Assembly: GCA_013360465.1 (NCBI GenBank)
Contig: JABWBO010000007.1
Coordinates: forward strand, 62,001-126,000
Source: Anaerolineae bacterium
Lineage (GTDB): Bacteria > Chloroflexota > Anaerolineae > Aggregatilineales > Phototrophicaceae
Reading direction: 5' to 3'
DNA: 64,000 bases
Part shown: piece by piece, positions 46,335 through 54,800 of the stretch
Layout: each line of letters starts with the position of its first letter
Position numbering within the stretch: position 1 is the stretch's first letter
Made by a program: the position numbers and the translations under genes
The notes under the pieces: model-generated
Databases searched by the model: none
What the model saw: only the letters and a program-made list of their open reading frames with translations
Told to the model about the DNA's origin: nothing

Positions 46335-49300
46335 CTAGGAGATATCGCAAAGCGGCTCTATTCGGTATTGGGCGCGTTCCTCGCACGAGAAGTCCTGCTG
46401 GTAGCGGTTGGCGCGCACCCACGACAGCAGCTCGTTCAGCGGACGGTCGGCGACCTGCCATTCGATCACCTTGCCATCCATGCCGGCGGAATAGGCGGTC
46501 CGCCCATCGGCGCTGAAGACGGCTTCCCAGACAAAGTTTGTATGCCCGTAGAACCGCCGCACCTCCTGCCCGCCGGCAAAATCCCACAGGATGACCAGCC
46601 CAGACTGATCGCCGGAGATGACGTAACGCTGATCGACGCTGAGGTCAAGGTCGCGCACCCAATTGCTGTGACAGCAGTAGCGGTGGATCACTTCACCCGT
46701 TTCGTAGTCGATGCGCTGAATTTCGCCGCTGCCCAAACCCGCCAGCACCTGGGGGGTTTCCGGCACCAGCGCCAGGCTAAGAATCGTCGAATCAGGGAGG
46801 AAATGGCGAAGCTCCTGCCCTGTCGCCGCGTCCCAAACGATCAACCCGGTGATGGTGGTCGTGCCGGAACCGGTCAGGATGGCGCTGCCGTCTTCGGTGA
46901 ACAGGCTGGCGTTGACCCACAGGTCGGTGTTCAGCCTCAGGGCTTCCTCACCCGTCTGTACGCTCCAGACGATGGTATCGCCGTGCGAATTATCCTCCCA
47001 GAAATCCCCCCACTGGATGCTGTTCGCCAGCGCATACCGACCGTCAGGGCTGAAAGACGCCCAGTAGGGGATGTAGTCGAATCCCTCAAGCGTATGAAGT
47101 TTCGCCCCGGTTTCGACATCCCACAGGGTGTAGCTGCCCGCGCCGGTGTTGCCAAACCAGTCCGCCGAGGCGACGAAGAGCGTGCGCCCATCTCCGCTGA
47201 AGGCGATCCGCCAGACCCATCCGACCGCGCCGGGGAATCGGCGAACTTCTTCACCGGCGGACTTCTCCTGAAGGATCACCACGCCGTCGGCAGTGCCCAG
47301 CGCCAGATACCGCCCGTCGGGGCTTTCGGCGGCAGACGTGAATCGGACGGTCTCGTCGCCGAAGCGGCGATTTGCCCCGGTCTGGGGGAGTTCCCAAACA
47401 ATAAGGTCTCCAGATTCCGTCCCATAAATCCCTGTCCCCGAAGCGCCGACCGCCAGCGACACAATGCGGTGCATACGCAGCCCATGATAGGAAACTCCGT
47501 ACTGGAGAGACCACTGATCGATGTTCCAGGCGCGCAGATGCCCCAATTCGGCAAAGAACAGGGTTCGCCCGTCGGGTGACAGCGCCAGATCGGTCGGGTT
47601 GCCGATGAACGACGACTGCTGTCGCTCAAGGTCGCCCGTGTCCAGGTTCCACAGGCTGATCAGATTGTTCCGCGTTACCGAGACTAGGCGTTCTCCAGCC
47701 GCGAACGCCACACCCGTCACGCGCGATCCGTGCCCCTCAAGCGCCATCAGCCGGTCGCCAGACGCAGCATCCCACAGGATGACCATCCCTTCCGCACCGC
47801 CGGTCGCCAGCATCGCACCGTCCGCGCTGAAAGCGAGACTGTCGATCTCGGCGGCGTGCCCTTCCAGAGCGAGGATGATCTCGCCGGTCTCCGCATCCCA
47901 CAGCGCCGCCGTCGCGTCGTCGGACGCCGTAGCGAAGACCCTCCCGTCCGGGCTGAAAGCGACATCATTGATACCCGCCTTGTGCCCTTCGAAACGGCGA
48001 ATCGCTACGCCATCCGGCATCCCCCACTGAATCACCATCCCGTCCGAGGAAGCCGAAAGCGCCGTCCTGCCATCCGGCGCGAAGCTCACGGCGTTCACCC
48101 AGCCGGCATGTCCTTCTAGACGCCGGACTTCGACTTTCGCCTGAACATCCCAAACGATCAGCTCGCCCACCGCGCACGCCTCACCCTCACTCAACACTGC
48201 GCAGCTTCCGGTCAGGGCATAGCGCCCATCAGGGCTGAGCGCACCCGATCTGATCTCGCTGCTGTGACCGTGCAAAACCGCCCGAACGCCCGCACCCTGG
48301 GCGATTTCCCGAAAGGCGATTTCCGCTTCTGATGGCGGCTCCTCTATTTCCAGCGCTTCCAAAGCCAGTGCGGTCGCCAGGACTGTATTGCCGTTCTCGT
48401 AAGAGTCGAGCGCGCTGCCCGCCAGCACCAGGCTGTGGTTCACCGCGCTTTCGCGTTCTGCCTGAGCGAGCGCCGCCTGTGCCCGCACCTCCTGCTGAAA
48501 GGCGTACAGGGCAAGCGCCACCGCTGCCACCAGAAACACTCCCAAGCCCGCCGCCAGATAGCGCAGACGGTTTGCTGCCCGCCGCTGACTTTCAGCGAGC
48601 AGCCGCTGCGTCTCCATTTCGCGCCGCTGGCGTTCCTGTTCCGCACTTCGCTGGCGCTCCGTTTCGGCGACGCTGGTTTCCAGGTAGGTGCGCTCCTCCT
48701 GATTGAGCGCCAGACGCGCGTCGGCGGACCATGCCGCCATCTGATCCAGCCGAGCGCCGCGCAGCAGATAACTGGCGTCCCTGCCTGCCTCATACCATTC
48801 CGCGGCAGCGGCAGCCAGGAGGCGCTGCTGGCGAATGTCATGCCGGCTCTCGTCGATCCAGCTTCTCAGCCGTTCCCACTCCCACAGGATCGCCTCATGC
48901 GCAATCTCCACCGTGGGACGGCGCGTCGCCGGGTCATGATCCAGCGTGAGCAGCCGATAGGCGGCATACATATCGAGAATCTCATCGGTCATGTCTGCAT
49001 CATCAGCGACTGCCAGCAGTTCTGAACGCGGCGCCCGCCGGCGCGCATCGCCTGTGCCTTCGCCCAGCGCGACCAGACGCAGAAACATCTGTCGGATGAT
49101 CTCCCGCCCGGCTTCCGGCTGCTCGTGATACAGAACTTCGGCGCGTTTCGCCAGCGCGCCCGAAGCCCCTCCCAGCGCATGGTAGGCGTCGCTGGTCAGG
49201 GTGTGGTCTGAACGCCGCTGGAACAGCTCGGTCAGCGCGTATTGCAGCAGAGGCAGCGCTCCCGGTTGCGCATGAACGTCCCCGCTGATCGCGGCGACCA

Positions 49301-51119
49301 GCCCAGGCTCAAACGCCACGCCTTCGCGCGATGCGGGCTGGGTGATCGCCTCTTCCAGCTCTTCGGGAGACAGGGGCATGACTGTCTCCATGCGGCTCCG
49401 CACCAGTTCGCCAAACTCCGGGTATTGCAGCGGACGGTCATAGAAGTCGGCGCGCAGCGTGATGATCACACGAACGCGGCTGCGCGGGTTGGCAACAGCA
49501 GCAGCCAGCAGCCCGATGAACTGCGCGCGCCGGGCTTCATCTTCGACCAGGGTGAACACCTCTTCGAACTGATCGACGATGACCGCCAGTTCACTGTCGT
49601 CTTCTGGCAGGATGAGCGCGGCGGCGCGCCCCAAGCCGCGTGCATCGCGGTCCAGGTGTTCGCGCAGATTCCCTGCCGGATGAGCAGCGACTCTGGTCAG
49701 CGCGATCTCCAGCTCGTCCAGCGGATATGCGCCGGGAGTCATCTCGACCAAGAACCAGCGTTCTGATCCGGGGAGACCGCCACGGCGCAGCGCCGGCAGC
49801 AGCCCCGCTTTCACGACGCTCGATTTTCCGCAGCCGCTTGGACCTACCACCGCCAGGAAACGCGCCAGCGGATCTTCCTCACCCAGGCGCTTGATTAGCT
49901 TCTGAACCAGCCGCCCACGCCCGAAGAAGTCGGCAGAATCTGCCTCATCGAACGCCCGCAAACCCTTGTAGGGATTCACCAGTTCAACGGCAGCGCGCGC
50001 GGAAACCGCCCCTTCACTGATCCGAAGGGTGGGCGTATCGACAGCCTCCTCTTCGTCCACCCGCGCTCTCGCGGCATAAGGCTCAGTCAGGCGCAGGGCG
50101 AGTGCGCGTTCAATCGCCTGCTGCCGACTATGAACGTCCAGCTTGCTGTAGATCTGCCGCATGTACCACTTCACCGTCTCCGGCGAAAGCACCAGCCGCT
50201 CGCAGATCTGGCTGTTCGTCAGCCCTTCGACCACCAGACGCATGACTTCGATCTCGCGCTCGGTCAGCGCATCGACGAGAGGCTGCGCCGGAACGCGCGG
50301 CAGCGCGGCTGGCAGCGCGGCGCGAAACGCCGCCGCAAAGCGCTGCACGGACGGGTAACGCAGTTTTGGATTCTTGGCTGTCGCAGTTTGCAGCACCTCA
50401 TCGAGTATAGCGGGAAAGTTGGGTCGGCTCTGGCTGATCGTCGGAAGCGGAACCGCCAAATGCTTCTGGATGTAATCGCTGGGAGTCTTTGCGTCAGGAT
50501 AGGGCGCGACGCCGGTGAGGACCTCGTACATCACATAGCCGAGGCTGTAGATGTCGGATCGCGGACTGACTTCCTCGCTCCGAATCTGCTCTGGCGAGGA
50601 ATAGGCGGGCGAGCCGAGGAACTCCTCCTCGGCAGGTGTTTCATGTCGCTGGGTATCGACGGCAATGCCGAAGTCCGCCAGATAAGCATTGCTATCCTCA
50701 TCGAGGAGGATGTTCTCCGGTTTGATGTCCCGATGGACGATTCCCTCACGATGCGCCACCGTCAGCGCCTCCGACAGATGATCGAGCAGGCGCGCCGCCG
50801 CTTCCAGCTTCCAGACGCCTGGCTCCAGCGAGGCGCGCAGGCTGGTAGGCAGCCAGCGCATGATGAGATAGGCGCCTTCCGGGTCCCTCCAGTAGTCATA
50901 CAGCGGGACGATGTGGGGGTGTTCCAGCCGCGCGATGATCTGCGCTTCGATCTCGAAACGGCGGATGAAGTCCGGTTGGTTCGCGTGCTTGGGGAGGATG
51001 ATCTTGATCGCCACTTCGCGCTGGACCGAAGGCTGGTAAGCTCGGTAGACAACACCGAAACCGCCGGCTCCGATCCGCTCCCGAAGCTCGTATCCCTTGA
51101 TCGTTGTAGAGGCAGCCAT
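46335..51119 (-). CDS. Giant Ser/Thr kinase - LuxR HTH - STAND NTPase - TM - WD40 protein
   Basis: About 1594 residues. Hanks-type kinase (8-270): GAGGFG loop (17-22), Lys39, HRDIKPEN (129-136), DFG (149-151). LuxR-type HTH (284-340): LTEREIEVMRLVVEGLTNSQ, then an SPETVKWYMRQIYSKL recognition region. nSTAND-like NTPase: NPYKGLRAFDEADSADFFGR then Walker A GPSGCGKSS (426-434) and Walker B LAVIVDQFEEVF. A helical stretch and one TM (LRYLAAGLGVFLVAAVALAL, ~880-900) precede a long C-terminal WD40 array with repeated 'SPDGR' and 'WD' blades. Topology predicts WD40 outside and signalling domains inside. ATG 51119 has AAAGGGG upstream. Presumably a stress or envelope signalling protein. Confidence 0.9.
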   Translation of the reverse strand: MAASTTIKGYELRERIGAGGFGVVYRAYQPSVQREVAIKIILPKHANQPDFIRRFEIEAQIIARLEHPHIVPLYDYWRDPEGAYLIMRWLPTSLRASLEPGVWKLEAAARLLDHLSEALTVAHREGIVHRDIKPENILLDEDSNAYLADFGIAVDTQRHETPAEEEFLGSPAYSSPEQIRSEEVSPRSDIYSLGYVMYEVLTGVAPYPDAKTPSDYIQKHLAVPLPTISQSRPNFPAILDEVLQTATAKNPKLRYPSVQRFAAAFRAALPAALPRVPAQPLVDALTEREIEVMRLVVEGLTNSQICERLVLSPETVKWYMRQIYSKLDVHSRQQAIERALALRLTEPYAARARVDEEEAVDTPTLRISEGAVSARAAVELVNPYKGLRAFDEADSADFFGRGRLVQKLIKRLGEEDPLARFLAVVGPSGCGKSSVVKAGLLPALRRGGLPGSERWFLVEMTPGAYPLDELEIALTRVAAHPAGNLREHLDRDARGLGRAAALILPEDDSELAVIVDQFEEVFTLVEDEARRAQFIGLLAAAVANPRSRVRVIITLRADFYDRPLQYPEFGELVRSRMETVMPLSPEELEEAITQPASREGVAFEPGLVAAISGDVHAQPGALPLLQYALTELFQRRSDHTLTSDAYHALGGASGALAKRAEVLYHEQPEAGREIIRQMFLRLVALGEGTGDARRRAPRSELLAVADDADMTDEILDMYAAYRLLTLDHDPATRRPTVEIAHEAILWEWERLRSWIDESRHDIRQQRLLAAAAAEWYEAGRDASYLLRGARLDQMAAWSADARLALNQEERTYLETSVAETERQRSAEQERQRREMETQRLLAESQRRAANRLRYLAAGLGVFLVAAVALALYAFQQEVRAQAALAQAERESAVNHSLVLAGSALDSYENGNTVLATALALEALEIEEPPSEAEIAFREIAQGAGVRAVLHGHSSEIRSGALSPDGRYALTGSCAVLSEGEACAVGELIVWDVQAKVEVRRLEGHAGWVNAVSFAPDGRTALSASSDGMVIQWGMPDGVAIRRFEGHKAGINDVAFSPDGRVFATASDDATAALWDAETGEIILALEGHAAEIDSLAFSADGAMLATGGAEGMVILWDAASGDRLMALEGHGSRVTGVAFAAGERLVSVTRNNLISLWNLDTGDLERQQSSFIGNPTDLALSPDGRTLFFAELGHLRAWNIDQWSLQYGVSYHGLRMHRIVSLAVGASGTGIYGTESGDLIVWELPQTGANRRFGDETVRFTSAAESPDGRYLALGTADGVVILQEKSAGEEVRRFPGAVGWVWRIAFSGDGRTLFVASADWFGNTGAGSYTLWDVETGAKLHTLEGFDYIPYWASFSPDGRYALANSIQWGDFWEDNSHGDTIVWSVQTGEEALRLNTDLWVNASLFTEDGSAILTGSGTTTITGLIVWDAATGQELRHFLPDSTILSLALVPETPQVLAGLGSGEIQRIDYETGEVIHRYCCHSNWVRDLDLSVDQRYVISGDQSGLVILWDFAGGQEVRRFYGHTNFVWEAVFSADGRTAYSAGMDGKVIEWQVADRPLNELLSWVRANRYQQDFSCEERAQYRIEPLCDIS

Positions 51120-51233
51120 GCGAATAACCCCTTTCAAAAAAGGATTGTACTTTTAGTCACATTATAAGCAGCAATCGGCTCACTGGTGCAGGCGGTTCCG
51201 CCAAAGGGGACGGGCAAGCGGGCAAGACGCTGC

Positions 51234-51262
51234 TTGACAAAACTCGGCAAACCCTTTAGCCT
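51234..51262 (+). promoter_or_regulatory. Promoter of the sulfur operon
   Basis: A consensus TTGACA (51234-51239), a 17-nt spacer, then TAGCCT (51257-51262) as a weak -10. Transcription would start near 51269, giving a leader of about 250 nt before the first structural gene. Confidence 0.55.
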
Positions 51263-51305
51263 TTCAAATGTCAATGAGAAATCAGCAAACCTGAAACAGG
51301 ATCTG

Positions 51306-51389
51306 ATGCTTTCCTTCCAGATGCGCGCCACCTCCATGTGTATGTCCTGTTGTTGTGCGAACAACAGACGGGGTCCGCATCAGCTGTAA
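51306..51389 (+). CDS. Cysteine-rich leader peptide of a transcription attenuator
   Basis: A 27-codon ORF in the 5' leader of the sulfur operon. ATG 51306 has AGGA just upstream; ATG 51321 in the same frame is an alternative. The middle reads MCMSCCCANNRRG: four Cys codons, all TGT, three of them adjacent (51348-51356), although TGC predominates among the Cys codons of the following genes. The stop is TAA at 51387-51389. The peptide has no recognisable domain. Its sense lies in translation itself: a ribosome waiting for Cys-tRNA would mask the left arm of the overlapping hairpin. Known poly-Cys leader peptides in actinobacteria control sulfur genes, which supports the role by analogy. Confidence 0.7.
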   Translation: MLSFQMRATSMCMSCCCANNRRGPHQL

Positions 51390-51457
51390 TCGTCATCTGA
51401 CTTCACTCAGCACACCTGCGCCCCGTCTTCGGTCTTCCGAGTCGGGGCGCTTTTGTT
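51347..51457 (+). promoter_or_regulatory. Cysteine attenuator: alternative 1:2, 2:3 and 3:4 RNA pairings with terminator
   Basis: Region 1 CTGTTGTT (51347-51354, over the Cys codons) pairs with region 2 AACAACAG (51360-51367). Region 2 also holds AGACGGGG (51366-51373), which pairs perfectly with CCCCGTCT in region 3 (51419-51426); a wobble and three further pairs (51377-51379 with 51415-51417) extend it. Region 3 GCGCCCCG (51416-51423) pairs instead with region 4 CGGGGCGC (51441-51448), followed by TTTTGTTTT, a canonical terminator. Predicted logic: a ribosome stalled at Cys codons frees region 2, which forms the antiterminator and transcription continues; with ample Cys the ribosome reaches the stop codon, covers region 2 and the terminator forms. 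Confidence 0.75.
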
Positions 51458-51461
51458 TTCG

Positions 51462-51489
51462 GCGCACGACACGGGTCATGCGCTTTTTT
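51462..51489 (+). terminator. Second terminator-like hairpin before the rhodanese gene
   Basis: GCGCA (51462-51466) pairs with TGCGC (51479-51483), with an inner GAC/GTC pairing, followed by TTTTTT (51484-51489). It is weaker than the attenuator terminator and could reinforce it. Confidence 0.45.
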
Positions 51490-51517: not shown

Positions 51518-52321
51518 ATGTCGCAAACCAGCCCGCTCAGCGTCGTCGGCAGCCTGCTGATCGAATCGGAATGGCTTGTCGCCCACCTTGACGCCGAAAA
51601 CCTGCGCATCGTCGATGTACGCCTGGCGGAAAGCTATGTCGATGGGCACATTCCGAACGCCGTCCATCTCGACCTGAATGCGCTGCGTGCCGAGCGCGAC
51701 GGCATCGAAGGGATGCTGATCACGCCAGAATCCTTTTCCAGGATCGTCGGGCAAATGGGAATAGATGCCGACACAACGGTGGTCCTTTACGACGATCATC
51801 ACGGCATGCCGGCGGCACGCGCCGCCTGGAGCCTGCTGCGCTATGGACATGCGAACCTCGCGCTGCTCGACGGCGGATGGGACGCCTGGGAAAACGGCGC
51901 TTTTCCAACCACACAGGACGTGCCATTCATCGCACCACACCGATTCGGCGTCGTTCAGGCAGAACTATACGGCGCAGACTTCCTGTGGGTGCGTGCCCAT
52001 CTGAACCACCCCCAGGTGACGTTGCTCGATGTGCGTTCCAGCGCCGAATACGACAAAGGGCATCTGCCCGGCGCGCTGCTGTGGGACTGGCAGAACGGGG
52101 CAGACGAAAGCAGCACCTTCCGCAGTGTCAGTGAACTGCGCGCTTCGCTGTCGGCTGCCGGCGTCACGCCCGACCACGAGATCGTCACCTACTGCCAGAG
52201 CGGCGTCCGCGCCTCGCACACCTTCCTGCTGCTCAAACACCTGGGCTTTGAGCGGGTGCGCATGTATGACGGCTCGTGGGCGGAATGGTCGAGCCGGGGT
52301 TCAGAAGTCGAACGTTCATAG
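51518..52321 (+). CDS. sseA: Thiosulfate/3-mercaptopyruvate sulfurtransferase (tandem rhodanese)
   Basis: 267 residues with two rhodanese domains. The N-terminal domain (~10-135) is inactive: its loop reads YDDHHGMPAARA without Cys. The C-terminal domain (~145-265) has the active loop TYCQSGVRASH with Cys226. There is no signal peptide, so it acts in the cytoplasm and moves sulfane sulfur from thiosulfate or mercaptopyruvate to an acceptor. ATG 51518 is used; the in-frame TTG at 51488 lies inside the U-run of a hairpin and is unlikely. First structural gene after the cysteine attenuator, 49 nt before the thiosulfate transporter gene. Confidence 0.92.
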   Translation: MSQTSPLSVVGSLLIESEWLVAHLDAENLRIVDVRLAESYVDGHIPNAVHLDLNALRAERDGIEGMLITPESFSRIVGQMGIDADTTVVLYDDHHGMPAARAAWSLLRYGHANLALLDGGWDAWENGAFPTTQDVPFIAPHRFGVVQAELYGADFLWVRAHLNHPQVTLLDVRSSAEYDKGHLPGALLWDWQNGADESSTFRSVSELRASLSAAGVTPDHEIVTYCQSGVRASHTFLLLKHLGFERVRMYDGSWAEWSSRGSEVERS

Positions 52322-52370: not shown

Positions 52371-53618
52371 ATGCAGGCACAATCCGGATCGCTTCTGCCA
52401 CCCACGCCAGCGCTCAATTTCGGCGGTCCGCGCGCGGTGCGCGGCGCGCTGGCGCTCGCCGCTGCCGTCGCCGTCTACTACTTCGCCGCCGGTAACGAAG
52501 TCCGCATGGGCACATTCTGGGTGCTGGGGCTGGCGTTCGGTTTCGTCTTGCAGCGCAGCCGCTTCTGTTTCGCCAGCGCCTTCCGCGACATCTTCCTGCT
52601 CCGTCATGGACGCACGCTCAAAGGGGTTCTCGTCGGTCTGGCGGTTGCCGCCGTTGGCTTTTCAACTCTGATGGCGCGCCAGGTCCCCAATACCGCATTG
52701 GGCGTGCTTCCGCCAGACGCCAACGTCCTGCCGATGGGGCTGCACACGGTTGTTGGCGGCATCCTCTTCGGCTTCGGCATGGTCATCGCGGGCGGCTGCG
52801 TCTCTGGCAGCATCTACCGCATGGGCGAGGGCTACGTCGCCTCCTGGGTGAGCTTCTTCGGCATCATCCTTGGGGTGCTGGGCGCTGCCTACACCTGGAA
52901 CTGGTGGTGGGAATTCCAGATCGAGGACGGCTTACGGCTCTGGTTGCCCAATCTGCTCGGTCACGGCGGAGCGCTGGTGCTGACGCTGGCGGCGCTGGCG
53001 GGTCTCTTCGTGCTGACGCTGTGGTGGGAAAGCCGCGCCGGCGTGGTTGTGCCGGATGCTCCGTTCCAGGCAGAGGAAGAAGCGAATTTCGCCGCCAGGC
53101 TGCGCAATCTGTTCAAGCGCATCTTCGTTCACGGTTGGACGCCGCTTCTGGGCGGCGCGGTGCTGGGCGGACTGAACGTCGTCTCGTTCATCACTGAACG
53201 CCCCTGGGGGTTCACCGGCGAGCTGTCCCGCTGGAGTATCGGCATCTCCAACAGCCTGGGTTTTGGTCCCGGCATCCTCAAAGGCGTCGACGCCCTCCCC
53301 GGCTGCACGCTGGAACTGGGCGACAACGGCGTCCTGCACTTCATGCTCTTTCTGGTCCTCGGCATGATCTACGGCTCGTTTCTGGCGGCATACTTCGCCG
53401 GCGAGTTCAAGATTCGCATCCCCAGGCAGCGAATCCGCTTCGTTCAGGCGGGCGGCGGCGGACTGATCATGGGCTACGGCGCGGGCATCGCGATGGGCTG
53501 CACCATCGGCGCGTTTTTTTCCGCCATCGCTTCACTGGCGGTCAACGGCTGGGTTTTCGCCATCTTCCTGGCAGTCGGCGCATGGCTGGGTACACAGGCA
53601 ATTCAAAGAATTCCGTGA
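52371..53618 (+). CDS. tsuA: YeeE/YedE-family sulfur transporter (TsuA-like)
   Basis: 415 residues with about ten membrane segments. Family cysteines sit in SRFCFASAFRD (Cys66), AGGCVSGSIYRMGEG (Cys143), PGCTLELG (Cys312) and AMGCTIGAFFSA (Cys377); in characterised TsuA, conserved membrane cysteines pass thiosulfate by hydrogen bonding. The repeated GGC/MGC segments reflect internal pseudo-symmetry. ATG 52371 has an optimal GGGAGGG site. Between a rhodanese and a TusA-like gene, it most likely imports thiosulfate for cysteine synthesis. Confidence 0.88.
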   Translation: MQAQSGSLLPPTPALNFGGPRAVRGALALAAAVAVYYFAAGNEVRMGTFWVLGLAFGFVLQRSRFCFASAFRDIFLLRHGRTLKGVLVGLAVAAVGFSTLMARQVPNTALGVLPPDANVLPMGLHTVVGGILFGFGMVIAGGCVSGSIYRMGEGYVASWVSFFGIILGVLGAAYTWNWWWEFQIEDGLRLWLPNLLGHGGALVLTLAALAGLFVLTLWWESRAGVVVPDAPFQAEEEANFAARLRNLFKRIFVHGWTPLLGGAVLGGLNVVSFITERPWGFTGELSRWSIGISNSLGFGPGILKGVDALPGCTLELGDNGVLHFMLFLVLGMIYGSFLAAYFAGEFKIRIPRQRIRFVQAGGGGLIMGYGAGIAMGCTIGAFFSAIASLAVNGWVFAIFLAVGAWLGTQAIQRIP

Positions 53619-53646: not shown

Positions 53647-53871
53647 GTGAGCAAACAAATCGATCTGCGCGGTGAGATTTGTCCGTATCCGATGATGAAG
53701 ACCGTGCAAGCCCTGAAGAAACTGGGCAGGGAGGACCATGAACTTGTGGTGATCATCGACCACGCACCGGCGCTGGAGACCATCCCGACGCAGGCGGAGC
53801 GGCTCGGCTTCACTGTCGAGATCAAAGAGACCGGTTCGCCGGAATGGCGAATCACCCTGACACGCAAATAA
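53647..53871 (+). CDS. TusA/SirA-family sulfur carrier (TsuB-like)
   Basis: 74 residues with the family motif ICPYPMMKTVQALKKL (Cys12 in CPxP), then a two-layer alpha/beta fold. TusA-like proteins carry a persulfide on this Cys; TsuB (YeeD) works with TsuA in thiosulfate use. GTG 53647 has AAGGAG 8 nt upstream. Gaps of 28 and 26 nt to its neighbours show it is within the operon. A role as a cytoplasmic acceptor of sulfur from imported thiosulfate is inferred from context. Confidence 0.9.
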   Translation: MSKQIDLRGEICPYPMMKTVQALKKLGREDHELVVIIDHAPALETIPTQAERLGFTVEIKETGSPEWRITLTRK

Positions 53872-53897: not shown

Positions 53898-54800
53898 ATG
53901 AAGAAAGTCCTGATCTTCGTCCTGCTGTCGCTTCTTGTGCTGAGCGGCGCGCTGGTCAGCGCCCAGGAGGCAGAGCTTGATTACGCCAAACCGGAAATCC
54001 TGGTGGATACGGCTTGGGTCCTGGAGCATCTGGAAGACGAGAATGTCCGCCTGATCCATCTGGCGAGCAATCTGGAAGACTACGAAGCGGCGCATATCGA
54101 CGGCGCGCTCTTCGCCACCATCGCCAATCTGAATAATCCCGATGATCCGATCAGCGGGCAGATCGGCACGCCGGAGCAGGTCTCTACAGGTCTGGGGAGC
54201 CTTGGCGTCACGGTGGAAAACACGGTCGTTCTGTATGACGCCAACAATAACCTTTTCGCGGCGCGCGCCTACTGGGTGCTGAAGTACTACCAGCACGCCG
54301 ACGTGCGCATCTACAACGGTGGAACCAAGCGGTGGGAAGAAGACGGGCAGGCGTTGGTGACGGGCACAGCCCCGGAGGTCGAGCCGGTCGTTTATGAGAT
54401 CGCCGAAGCTGATCCGGAGATTCGCACCACCAGCGAGTATGTCTTGGAACACCTCGACGACGCCGGCGTGCAGATGTGCGATGCGCGTAATCCGGAAGAA
54501 TACATCGGCACCGATGTGCGCGCCGACCGGGGCGGGCATATCCCCGGCGCGATCAATCTGGATTGGGTACACACGGTGAATCAGGACGGCACATTCAAGT
54601 CTTTTGCCGAGCTGGATACCCTGTTCCAGGCGGCGGGCTTCGACCGCACCAAGCAGATCATCACCTACTGCCAGACGGGGGTACGCGGCGCACATGTCTG
54701 GTTCGCGCTGCGCGAGCTGCTCGGCTACGAAGACGTACGCAACTACGATGGTTCCTGGGTAGAATGGGGAAACAGCGCCGAACTCCCCATCGATAACTAG
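53898..54800 (+). CDS. Exported tandem-rhodanese sulfurtransferase
   Basis: 300 residues with a signal peptide (~1-22, LLVLSGALVSAQ). Two rhodanese domains follow: an inactive one (~30-155; loop YDANNNLFAAR) and an active one (~175-295) with TYCQTGVRGAH (Cys258). Unlike the first gene of the operon, this copy acts outside the membrane, where it could process thiosulfate or sulfane sulfur before uptake. ATG 53898 has GGAGG 11 nt upstream. A hairpin follows the stop. It resembles the first rhodanese in its C-terminal half (YDGSW.EW ending), so the two are probably paralogues. Confidence 0.9.
   Translation: MKKVLIFVLLSLLVLSGALVSAQEAELDYAKPEILVDTAWVLEHLEDENVRLIHLASNLEDYEAAHIDGALFATIANLNNPDDPISGQIGTPEQVSTGLGSLGVTVENTVVLYDANNNLFAARAYWVLKYYQHADVRIYNGGTKRWEEDGQALVTGTAPEVEPVVYEIAEADPEIRTTSEYVLEHLDDAGVQMCDARNPEEYIGTDVRADRGGHIPGAINLDWVHTVNQDGTFKSFAELDTLFQAAGFDRTKQIITYCQTGVRGAHVWFALRELLGYEDVRNYDGSWVEWGNSAELPIDN

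Follow-up and report, generated by a model that had tools for sequence, protein, structure and literature searches.

The window, a 64,000-nucleotide stretch of the genome of an Anaerolineae bacterium, contains an operon for sulfur-handling proteins preceded by a short open reading frame (ORF) with clustered Cys codons, which raises the question of whether translation of this ORF decides if transcription proceeds into the operon. We consider it very likely that the attenuator before the operon acts by ribosome-mediated, cysteine-responsive transcription attenuation; no expression data are available, and the response to cysteine is inferred. Its anatomy, conservation, covariation, geometry and operon association were all computed here.

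The sulfur operon and its leader

The original prediction had described the downstream genes as a thiosulfate operon of rhodanese, TsuA, TsuB and an exported rhodanese. The Pfam matches (Table 1) agree with these domains, but the transporter can only be called TsuA-like: it meets PF04143, and Spirochaeta TsuA is its nearest solved relative (E 3e-31 to 1e-29 against PDB 6leo/8k1r), yet it reaches only 147 bits against the NCBIfam TsuA cut-off of 400, so that rhodanese/Sulf_transp (TsuA-like) is the best name for the operon. The second rhodanese is probably exported, as judged from a signal-like segment found by inspection. In a genome of the same genus (G006), the operon is kept, with the rhodanese 83% and the TsuA-like protein 98% identical to those of the window. 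In the window's genome (97% complete), the APS/PAPS-reductase family PF01507 gave no match, and therefore the uptake of reduced sulfur may matter more there; such a match is also absent from most of the genus.

Table 1. Positions in the window of the promoter, leader, RNA elements and operon genes
Feature	Position	Strand	Details
Sigma70-type promoter	51234..51262	+	TTGACA (51234-51239), 17-bp spacer, TAGCCT (51257-51262); from sequence
Mini-ORF	51268..51294	+	MSMRNQQT and stop, 8 codons; starts at about +1; from sequence
Leader ORF	51306..51389	+	MLSFQMRATSMCMSCCCANNRRGPHQL and stop, 27 codons; AGGA SD-like motif at 51298-51301
Control codons	51339-51341, 51348-51356	+	TGT and TGT TGT TGT (Cys codons 12, 15-17), flanked by Met codons
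Hairpin 1:2	51347-51354/51360-51367	+	CTGTTGTT/AACAACAG; -8.3 kcal/mol; spans Cys codons
Region 2 (antiterminator 5' strand)	51366..51379	+	AGACGGGG-UC-CGCA; CGCA at 51376-51379
Region 3	51417..51428	+	UGCGCCCCGUCU; partner of either region 2 or T1 3' arm
Terminator T1	51418..51459	+	Stem 51418-51425/51443-51450, then TTTTGTTTT; -25.7 kcal/mol
Tandem terminator T2	51462..51489	+	Stem 51462-51469/51476-51483, TTTTTT at 51484-51489; -12.7 kcal/mol
Two-domain rhodanese (sulfurtransferase)	51518..52321	+	First structural gene; PF00581, 9e-44
TsuA-like membrane transporter (Sulf_transp, YeeE/YedE family)	52371..53618	+	PF04143, 1.3e-65
TusA/TsuB-like sulfur carrier	53647..53871	+	PF01206, 6.6e-17
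Second two-domain rhodanese	53898..54800	+	PF00581, 2.4e-34; N-terminal signal-like segment (by inspection)

The promoter-like TTGACA noticed earlier proved to be followed, after a 17-bp spacer, by a -10 element, and the -35 element, spacer length and -10 position are all kept in G006. Equivalent promoters also precede other leaders of TsuA-like operons (TsuA-type leaders). About 37 nt separate the predicted +1 from the leader ORF, which is thus not leaderless. Between the two lies a mini-ORF that the original prediction had missed, ending 11 nt before the leader; translation might restart at 51306 after it. In G006, the first ATG of this mini-ORF is lost and ATGAGAAAYCAGCAAACCTGA is kept.

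The sequence contains the 27-codon ORF with four TGT Cys codons, three of them adjacent, just as it had been described. Its counterpart in G006, MLFYQMFAAFMCMPCCCANNRRDSHRL, also has 27 codons without an indel and keeps all four TGT Cys codons; the AGGA SD-like motif is lost there. Of the 21 short ORFs with clustered Cys codons that the two strands of the window contain, this ORF and one implausible overlap are the only ones associated with a terminator. A second match to the leader in the same genome (L002) was rejected, as it covers the terminator stretch only and has no poly-Cys leader nearby.

Just upstream of the promoter, on the opposite strand, is the start of a divergent gene (46335-51137, minus strand), whose product of about 1600 residues combines a Ser/Thr kinase, a LuxR-type HTH, an nSTAND NTPase and WD40 repeats.

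Alternative RNA structures of the leader

The hairpin over the Cys codons folds at the predicted place; it is identical in G006 and clear in the window, not in all relatives. The proposed 8-bp alternative pairing also exists, except that its 3' partner, CCCCGTCT, lies at 51421-51428 and not at 51419-51426, and the terminator with its U-run is present, although its stem had likewise been placed 2 nt too low (51416-51423/51441-51448). The antiterminator extends further across a 2-nt bulge, where CGCA at 51376-51379 pairs with TGCG at 51417-51420, giving a total of 12 bp and -19.1 kcal/mol for AGACGGGG-UC-CGCA with UGCG-CCCCGUCU, stronger than first described and stronger than dinucleotide shuffles (p = 0.02). 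In G006, T1 is identical, region 2 loses one end pair and one A-U pair becomes G.U. Beyond T1 there is a tandem terminator, T2, which had been overlooked.

When folding was computed for a ribosome held at the Cys codons, with RNA polymerase just short of arm 4, the pairing between regions 2 and 3 (2:3) had a probability near 1; for a ribosome at the stop codon, or for free RNA, T1 formed. At equilibrium, T1 beats the antiterminator even with a stalled ribosome, and the switch must therefore be kinetic. A kinetic decision is accepted for the trp and his attenuators.

In the mechanism that we propose, RNA polymerase would start near 51267-51270 and a ribosome would then translate the leader from 51306. 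If Cys-tRNA, and perhaps Met-tRNA too, were scarce, the ribosome would stall at the TGT run, leaving region 2 free to pair with region 3 and block T1; the 3' arm of T1, once freed, could base-pair with T2 at its 5' arm, and transcription would continue into the sulfur operon. If Cys-tRNA were plentiful, the ribosome would reach the stop codon at 51387 and cover region 2, upon which T1 would form, with T2 as a backstop, and transcription would end. The position of the stop codon fits, as originally claimed, because region 2 begins about 21 nt before it. Promoter use, translation, stalling, termination, and the response to cysteine with its direction are inferred from comparative and computational evidence only.

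A sulfur operon, a terminator and an alternative pairing are also what a metabolite riboswitch or a T-box acting through T1 would offer, in which case the ORF would be incidental. No regulatory RNA in the window reached an Rfam gathering threshold, the only match being a tRNA, and there is no conserved aptamer-like core. Moreover, region 2 is part of the ORF and keeps a constant spacing to the stop codon, and Cys codons recur before unrelated operons (see below). This alternative is thus scarcely credible.

Recurrence of the leader in related genomes

TsuA-like genes were found in 34 of 98 genomes of the window's family (E <= 0.001, with short and partial matches counted), and a poly-Cys leader with one or more terminators precedes a rhodanese/TsuA-like operon in 18 genomes, including that of the window (G071 was counted as two loci). 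Analogues of the window's leader ORF are present in 16 genomes beyond the window's own and G006. The leader persists in operons whose TsuA shares as little as about 34% identity; one genome (G020) has the operon and lacks the leader. Apart from the Cys cluster, the leader peptides are almost unrelated, for example MQAQFAPMCCLCCMAHTRRALRC, MKNLFCTTIKSMCMCCMCKNP and MIFTCCCPCCLCMVNDHRG.

The RNA architecture is kept as well. In most cases region 2, the partner of the T1 5' arm, is found about 21 nt ahead of the stop codon; the antiterminator starts between -12 and -33 nt from the stop codon in 13 of 15 TsuA-type leaders, typically at -21, a position at which a terminating ribosome would cover region 2. 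In these 15 leaders, the antiterminator duplex was stronger than dinucleotide shuffles (mean z -2.2, Fisher p 1.4e-9). Across 8-mer pairs from 17 genomes, 86.8% of cells pair and 12 cells are changed on both sides, compensated pairs including AGCCAGGG/CCCTGGCT; the covariation score was 0.272 against 0.120 after shuffling (0 of 500 shuffles reached the observed value), and slid controls did not exceed 0.109. The arms for the covariation and relay tests were anchored by hand on a shared G/C core, and related rows are not independent. The same logic is realised in G080 with a wholly different sequence, GGAGATG/CATCTCC. The check suggested in the original prediction, for conserved Cys codons and alternative pairings in relatives, was run and passed, in G006, in the family leaders and in the covariation.

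Many TsuA-type operons have a second, SD-led mini poly-Cys ORF after the terminators, immediately ahead of the first gene, there the exported rhodanese. Examples are found in L244 (1987-2010), L245 (587-622, reverse complement), L252 (1448-1474), L255 (1105-1140), L257 (1653-1676, reverse complement), L263 (1860-1895, reverse complement) and others, with peptides such as MESCCCR, MEPCCCCAHSI, MTSCCRR, MEDCCCCHR, MDCCCSR and MEPCCCDGCST, each ending at a stop codon. The window, G006, G067 and G080 showed no such ORF.

The same device, mostly with what looks like a leaderless start, also precedes two other targets, a JAMM operon and cysteine synthase. In most genomes of the family, a leader stands before an operon encoding a JAMM (Prok-JAB) protein, a rhodanese and an O-acetylhomoserine sulfhydrylase (MetY). 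An unbiased scan of both strands of 80 named loci (1.2 Mb) found a leader with a terminator 64 times at -220 to -40 of a JAMM gene, in 62 of 76 loci, against 34 occurrences elsewhere; when a promoter was included, the counts were 32 and 0. Individually, the JAMM-type antiterminators are weak (mean z -0.75; p < 0.05 in 11 of 64). Within the order, the JAMM leader was found in families f1, f4 and f7. In the sampled genomes of f2, f3, f6 and f8 (L299-L306), the JAMM gene has no leader and directly follows the apparent end of a cysteine synthase gene, read by inspection. This order resembles the mycobacterial CysM-CysO-Mec pathway, and the analogy supports the idea that the JAMM protein may act in cysteine synthesis. 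A class-wide search revealed no Cys leader with a terminator before JAMM genes outside the order. Three contigs titled Bacteroidetes, Pleurocapsa and Proteobacteria (L112, L113 and L134) carry JAMM operons of the Chloroflexota type and are probably mislabelled MAG contigs.

The third target is cysteine synthase (cysKM family), before which CCC or CCCC leaders with terminators occur in most genomes of the genus (13 loci with leader and terminator), including the window's own (MQFLFCACCCRSGGAQGDFGRRRTPA and stop). The genome thus carries leaders before the TsuA-like, JAMM and cysteine synthase operons, and the window's attenuator is therefore accompanied there by at least two more like it. No convincing leader was seen at the PAPS-reductase loci of relatives. 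An exact match to the pattern MCCGMMCC in G004 was discarded as a chance occurrence, as it lies inside an apparent coding frame without leader and terminator.

That the Cys codons stand by chance beside an ordinary promoter-proximal terminator could be entertained only from a single sequence. The pattern at 62 of 76 JAMM loci, 18 TsuA-type loci and 13 cysteine synthase loci refutes it here, and recurrence across the family rules out chance. Rather, since the device recurs before three different cysteine or sulfur operons, it is very probably a shortage of cysteine that is sensed, through the progress of the ribosome along the leader. It is also possible, though we hold this with somewhat less than even confidence, that the three sulfur operons form a cysteine (and methionine) attenuator regulon in this branch of Anaerolineae, in which the TsuA-type members have a two-terminator relay and often a second, SD-led poly-Cys mini-ORF as a checkpoint.

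The composition of the leaders bears on what the ribosome would sense. TGT makes up 0.66-0.76 of Cys codons in the leaders, against 0.31 in the long ORFs that these loci contain (odds 4.9, p 2e-38), and most NNU codons were decoded more slowly than NNC codons in a his-leader assay (PMC4046918); the preference for TGT over TGC suggests that decoding speed matters. Met accounts for 22-24% of the non-Cys residues within the clusters of JAMM- and TsuA-type leaders, against 2-3% outside the cluster, and for 1% in the clusters of cysteine synthase leaders. The peptides are thus split by target, with Cys and Met before the MetY and TsuA-like operons and Cys alone before cysteine synthase. The Met enrichment suggests, without proving it, that methionine supply may be sensed too.

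Because the targets handle sulfur and the clusters are rich in Cys and Met, the nascent peptide itself could be imagined to sense a thiol, sulfane sulfur, a metal or the redox state and to arrest the ribosome, operating the same RNA switch. We regard this as highly improbable, given that no peptide sequence outside the Cys cluster is conserved between genomes, that the order within the cluster varies freely and that the TGT bias indicates decoding speed. Such free variation is unlike known arrest peptides.

Relation to known attenuators and the tandem terminators

Poly-Cys leaders were known before in mycobacteria and were predicted before cysS in Rhodobacterales, and the Chloroflexota device is a variant of these. 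Poly-Cys leader peptides in actinobacteria, mentioned in the original prediction, are documented in PMC1262725 and PMC4633059. The mycobacterial uORFs (PMC4633059) resemble the present leaders in being short poly-Cys ORFs before rhodanese or cysteine genes, and the JAMM-type copies share their apparently leaderless start: in 28 of 32 JAMM-type leaders the ATG follows the -10 element by 7 nt, so that these are probably leaderless. Leaderless genes have been estimated to be rare in Chloroflexi (4.7% in genomes with any detected; PMC3160421).

These similarities, together with the second mini poly-Cys ORF just before the first gene in many TsuA-type relatives, would suit a mycobacteria-like translational attenuation, in which the poly-Cys ORF governs access to the next ribosome-binding site and not transcription termination. 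In mycobacteria, leaderless poly-Cys uORFs precede cys operons (PMC4633059), and PMC13236596, which cites Canestrari 2020, gives translation attenuation as the M. smegmatis mechanism. However, no terminators were found with the actinobacterial Cys leader peptides (Seliverstov 2005, PMC1262725), whereas intrinsic terminators, often tandem, follow almost every leader here, the covarying pairing involves a terminator arm, and the window copy is not leaderless and has no second mini-ORF. Translational attenuation in place of transcription attenuation is therefore very unlikely.

The uORFC-8-2 motif before cysS in Rhodobacterales (PMC8632094) has been predicted to be a ribosome-mediated attenuator; its tandem Cys codons and intrinsic terminator are shared by the window's device. 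Unlike that motif, which has cysS as its single target and for which we saw no tandem terminators mentioned, the present device belongs to Chloroflexota and precedes three sulfur operons. No Chloroflexota example of a cysteine attenuator was found in the literature, within open-licence papers. In Chloroflexota, too, sulfur acquisition is very probably under the control of translation-coupled cysteine sensing, through intrinsic termination and at three operons, which gives an uncultured bacterial group a sulfur-control system.

Trp-type attenuators combine stall codons, an antiterminator that takes the 5' arm of the terminator and a stop codon that lets the ribosome mask region 2. The window's device has all three, and differs in the amino acid, in a region 2 within the leader ORF and in its tandem terminators. 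Given two terminators, the chain is nearer to that of the his attenuator than to the trp-type one originally proposed; in the his attenuator, pairings B:C and D:E allow read-through and E:F is the terminator (PMC4046918). Like the enterobacterial his attenuator, the device has consecutive control codons within a short leader ORF, and its putative set of 2:3 and 4:5 against T1 and T2 resembles that pairing chain. Unlike it, the device uses cysteine (with Met) in place of histidine, has U-runs after both 3:4 and 5:6 and hence two terminators, and belongs to another phylum and pathway.

Most TsuA-type leaders have a second terminator 6-43 nt past T1. In 14 genomes with a CCCC/GGGG core in both terminators (excluding the window, G006, G080 and G011), the four bases beyond the core were compared. 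Complementarity was genome-specific for 2:3 and 4:5 (p 0.0002 each) and also for the T2 stem 5:6; neither 2:5 (p 0.31) nor the T1 stem 3:4 (p 0.11) showed this. The pattern fits, and at the family level lends support to, a relay in which 2:3 would free arm 4 and arm 4 would capture arm 5; duplication of a terminator nearby could explain part of the signal. In the window itself, the relay is only suggestive: arm 4, the 3' side of T1, has two stretches able to pair with arm 5, the 5' side of T2 (51441-51444/51467-51470, 51447-51450/51462-51465), and this pairing is weak (-12.5 kcal/mol, p 0.09). If confirmed, a tandem-terminator relay would be a new way of sharpening an attenuator. Some T2 tails in the family are weak (TTGTTATTGC). 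In the cysteine synthase leaders of L316, L317, L321 and L327, the terminators are nested or double hairpins and have two U-runs.
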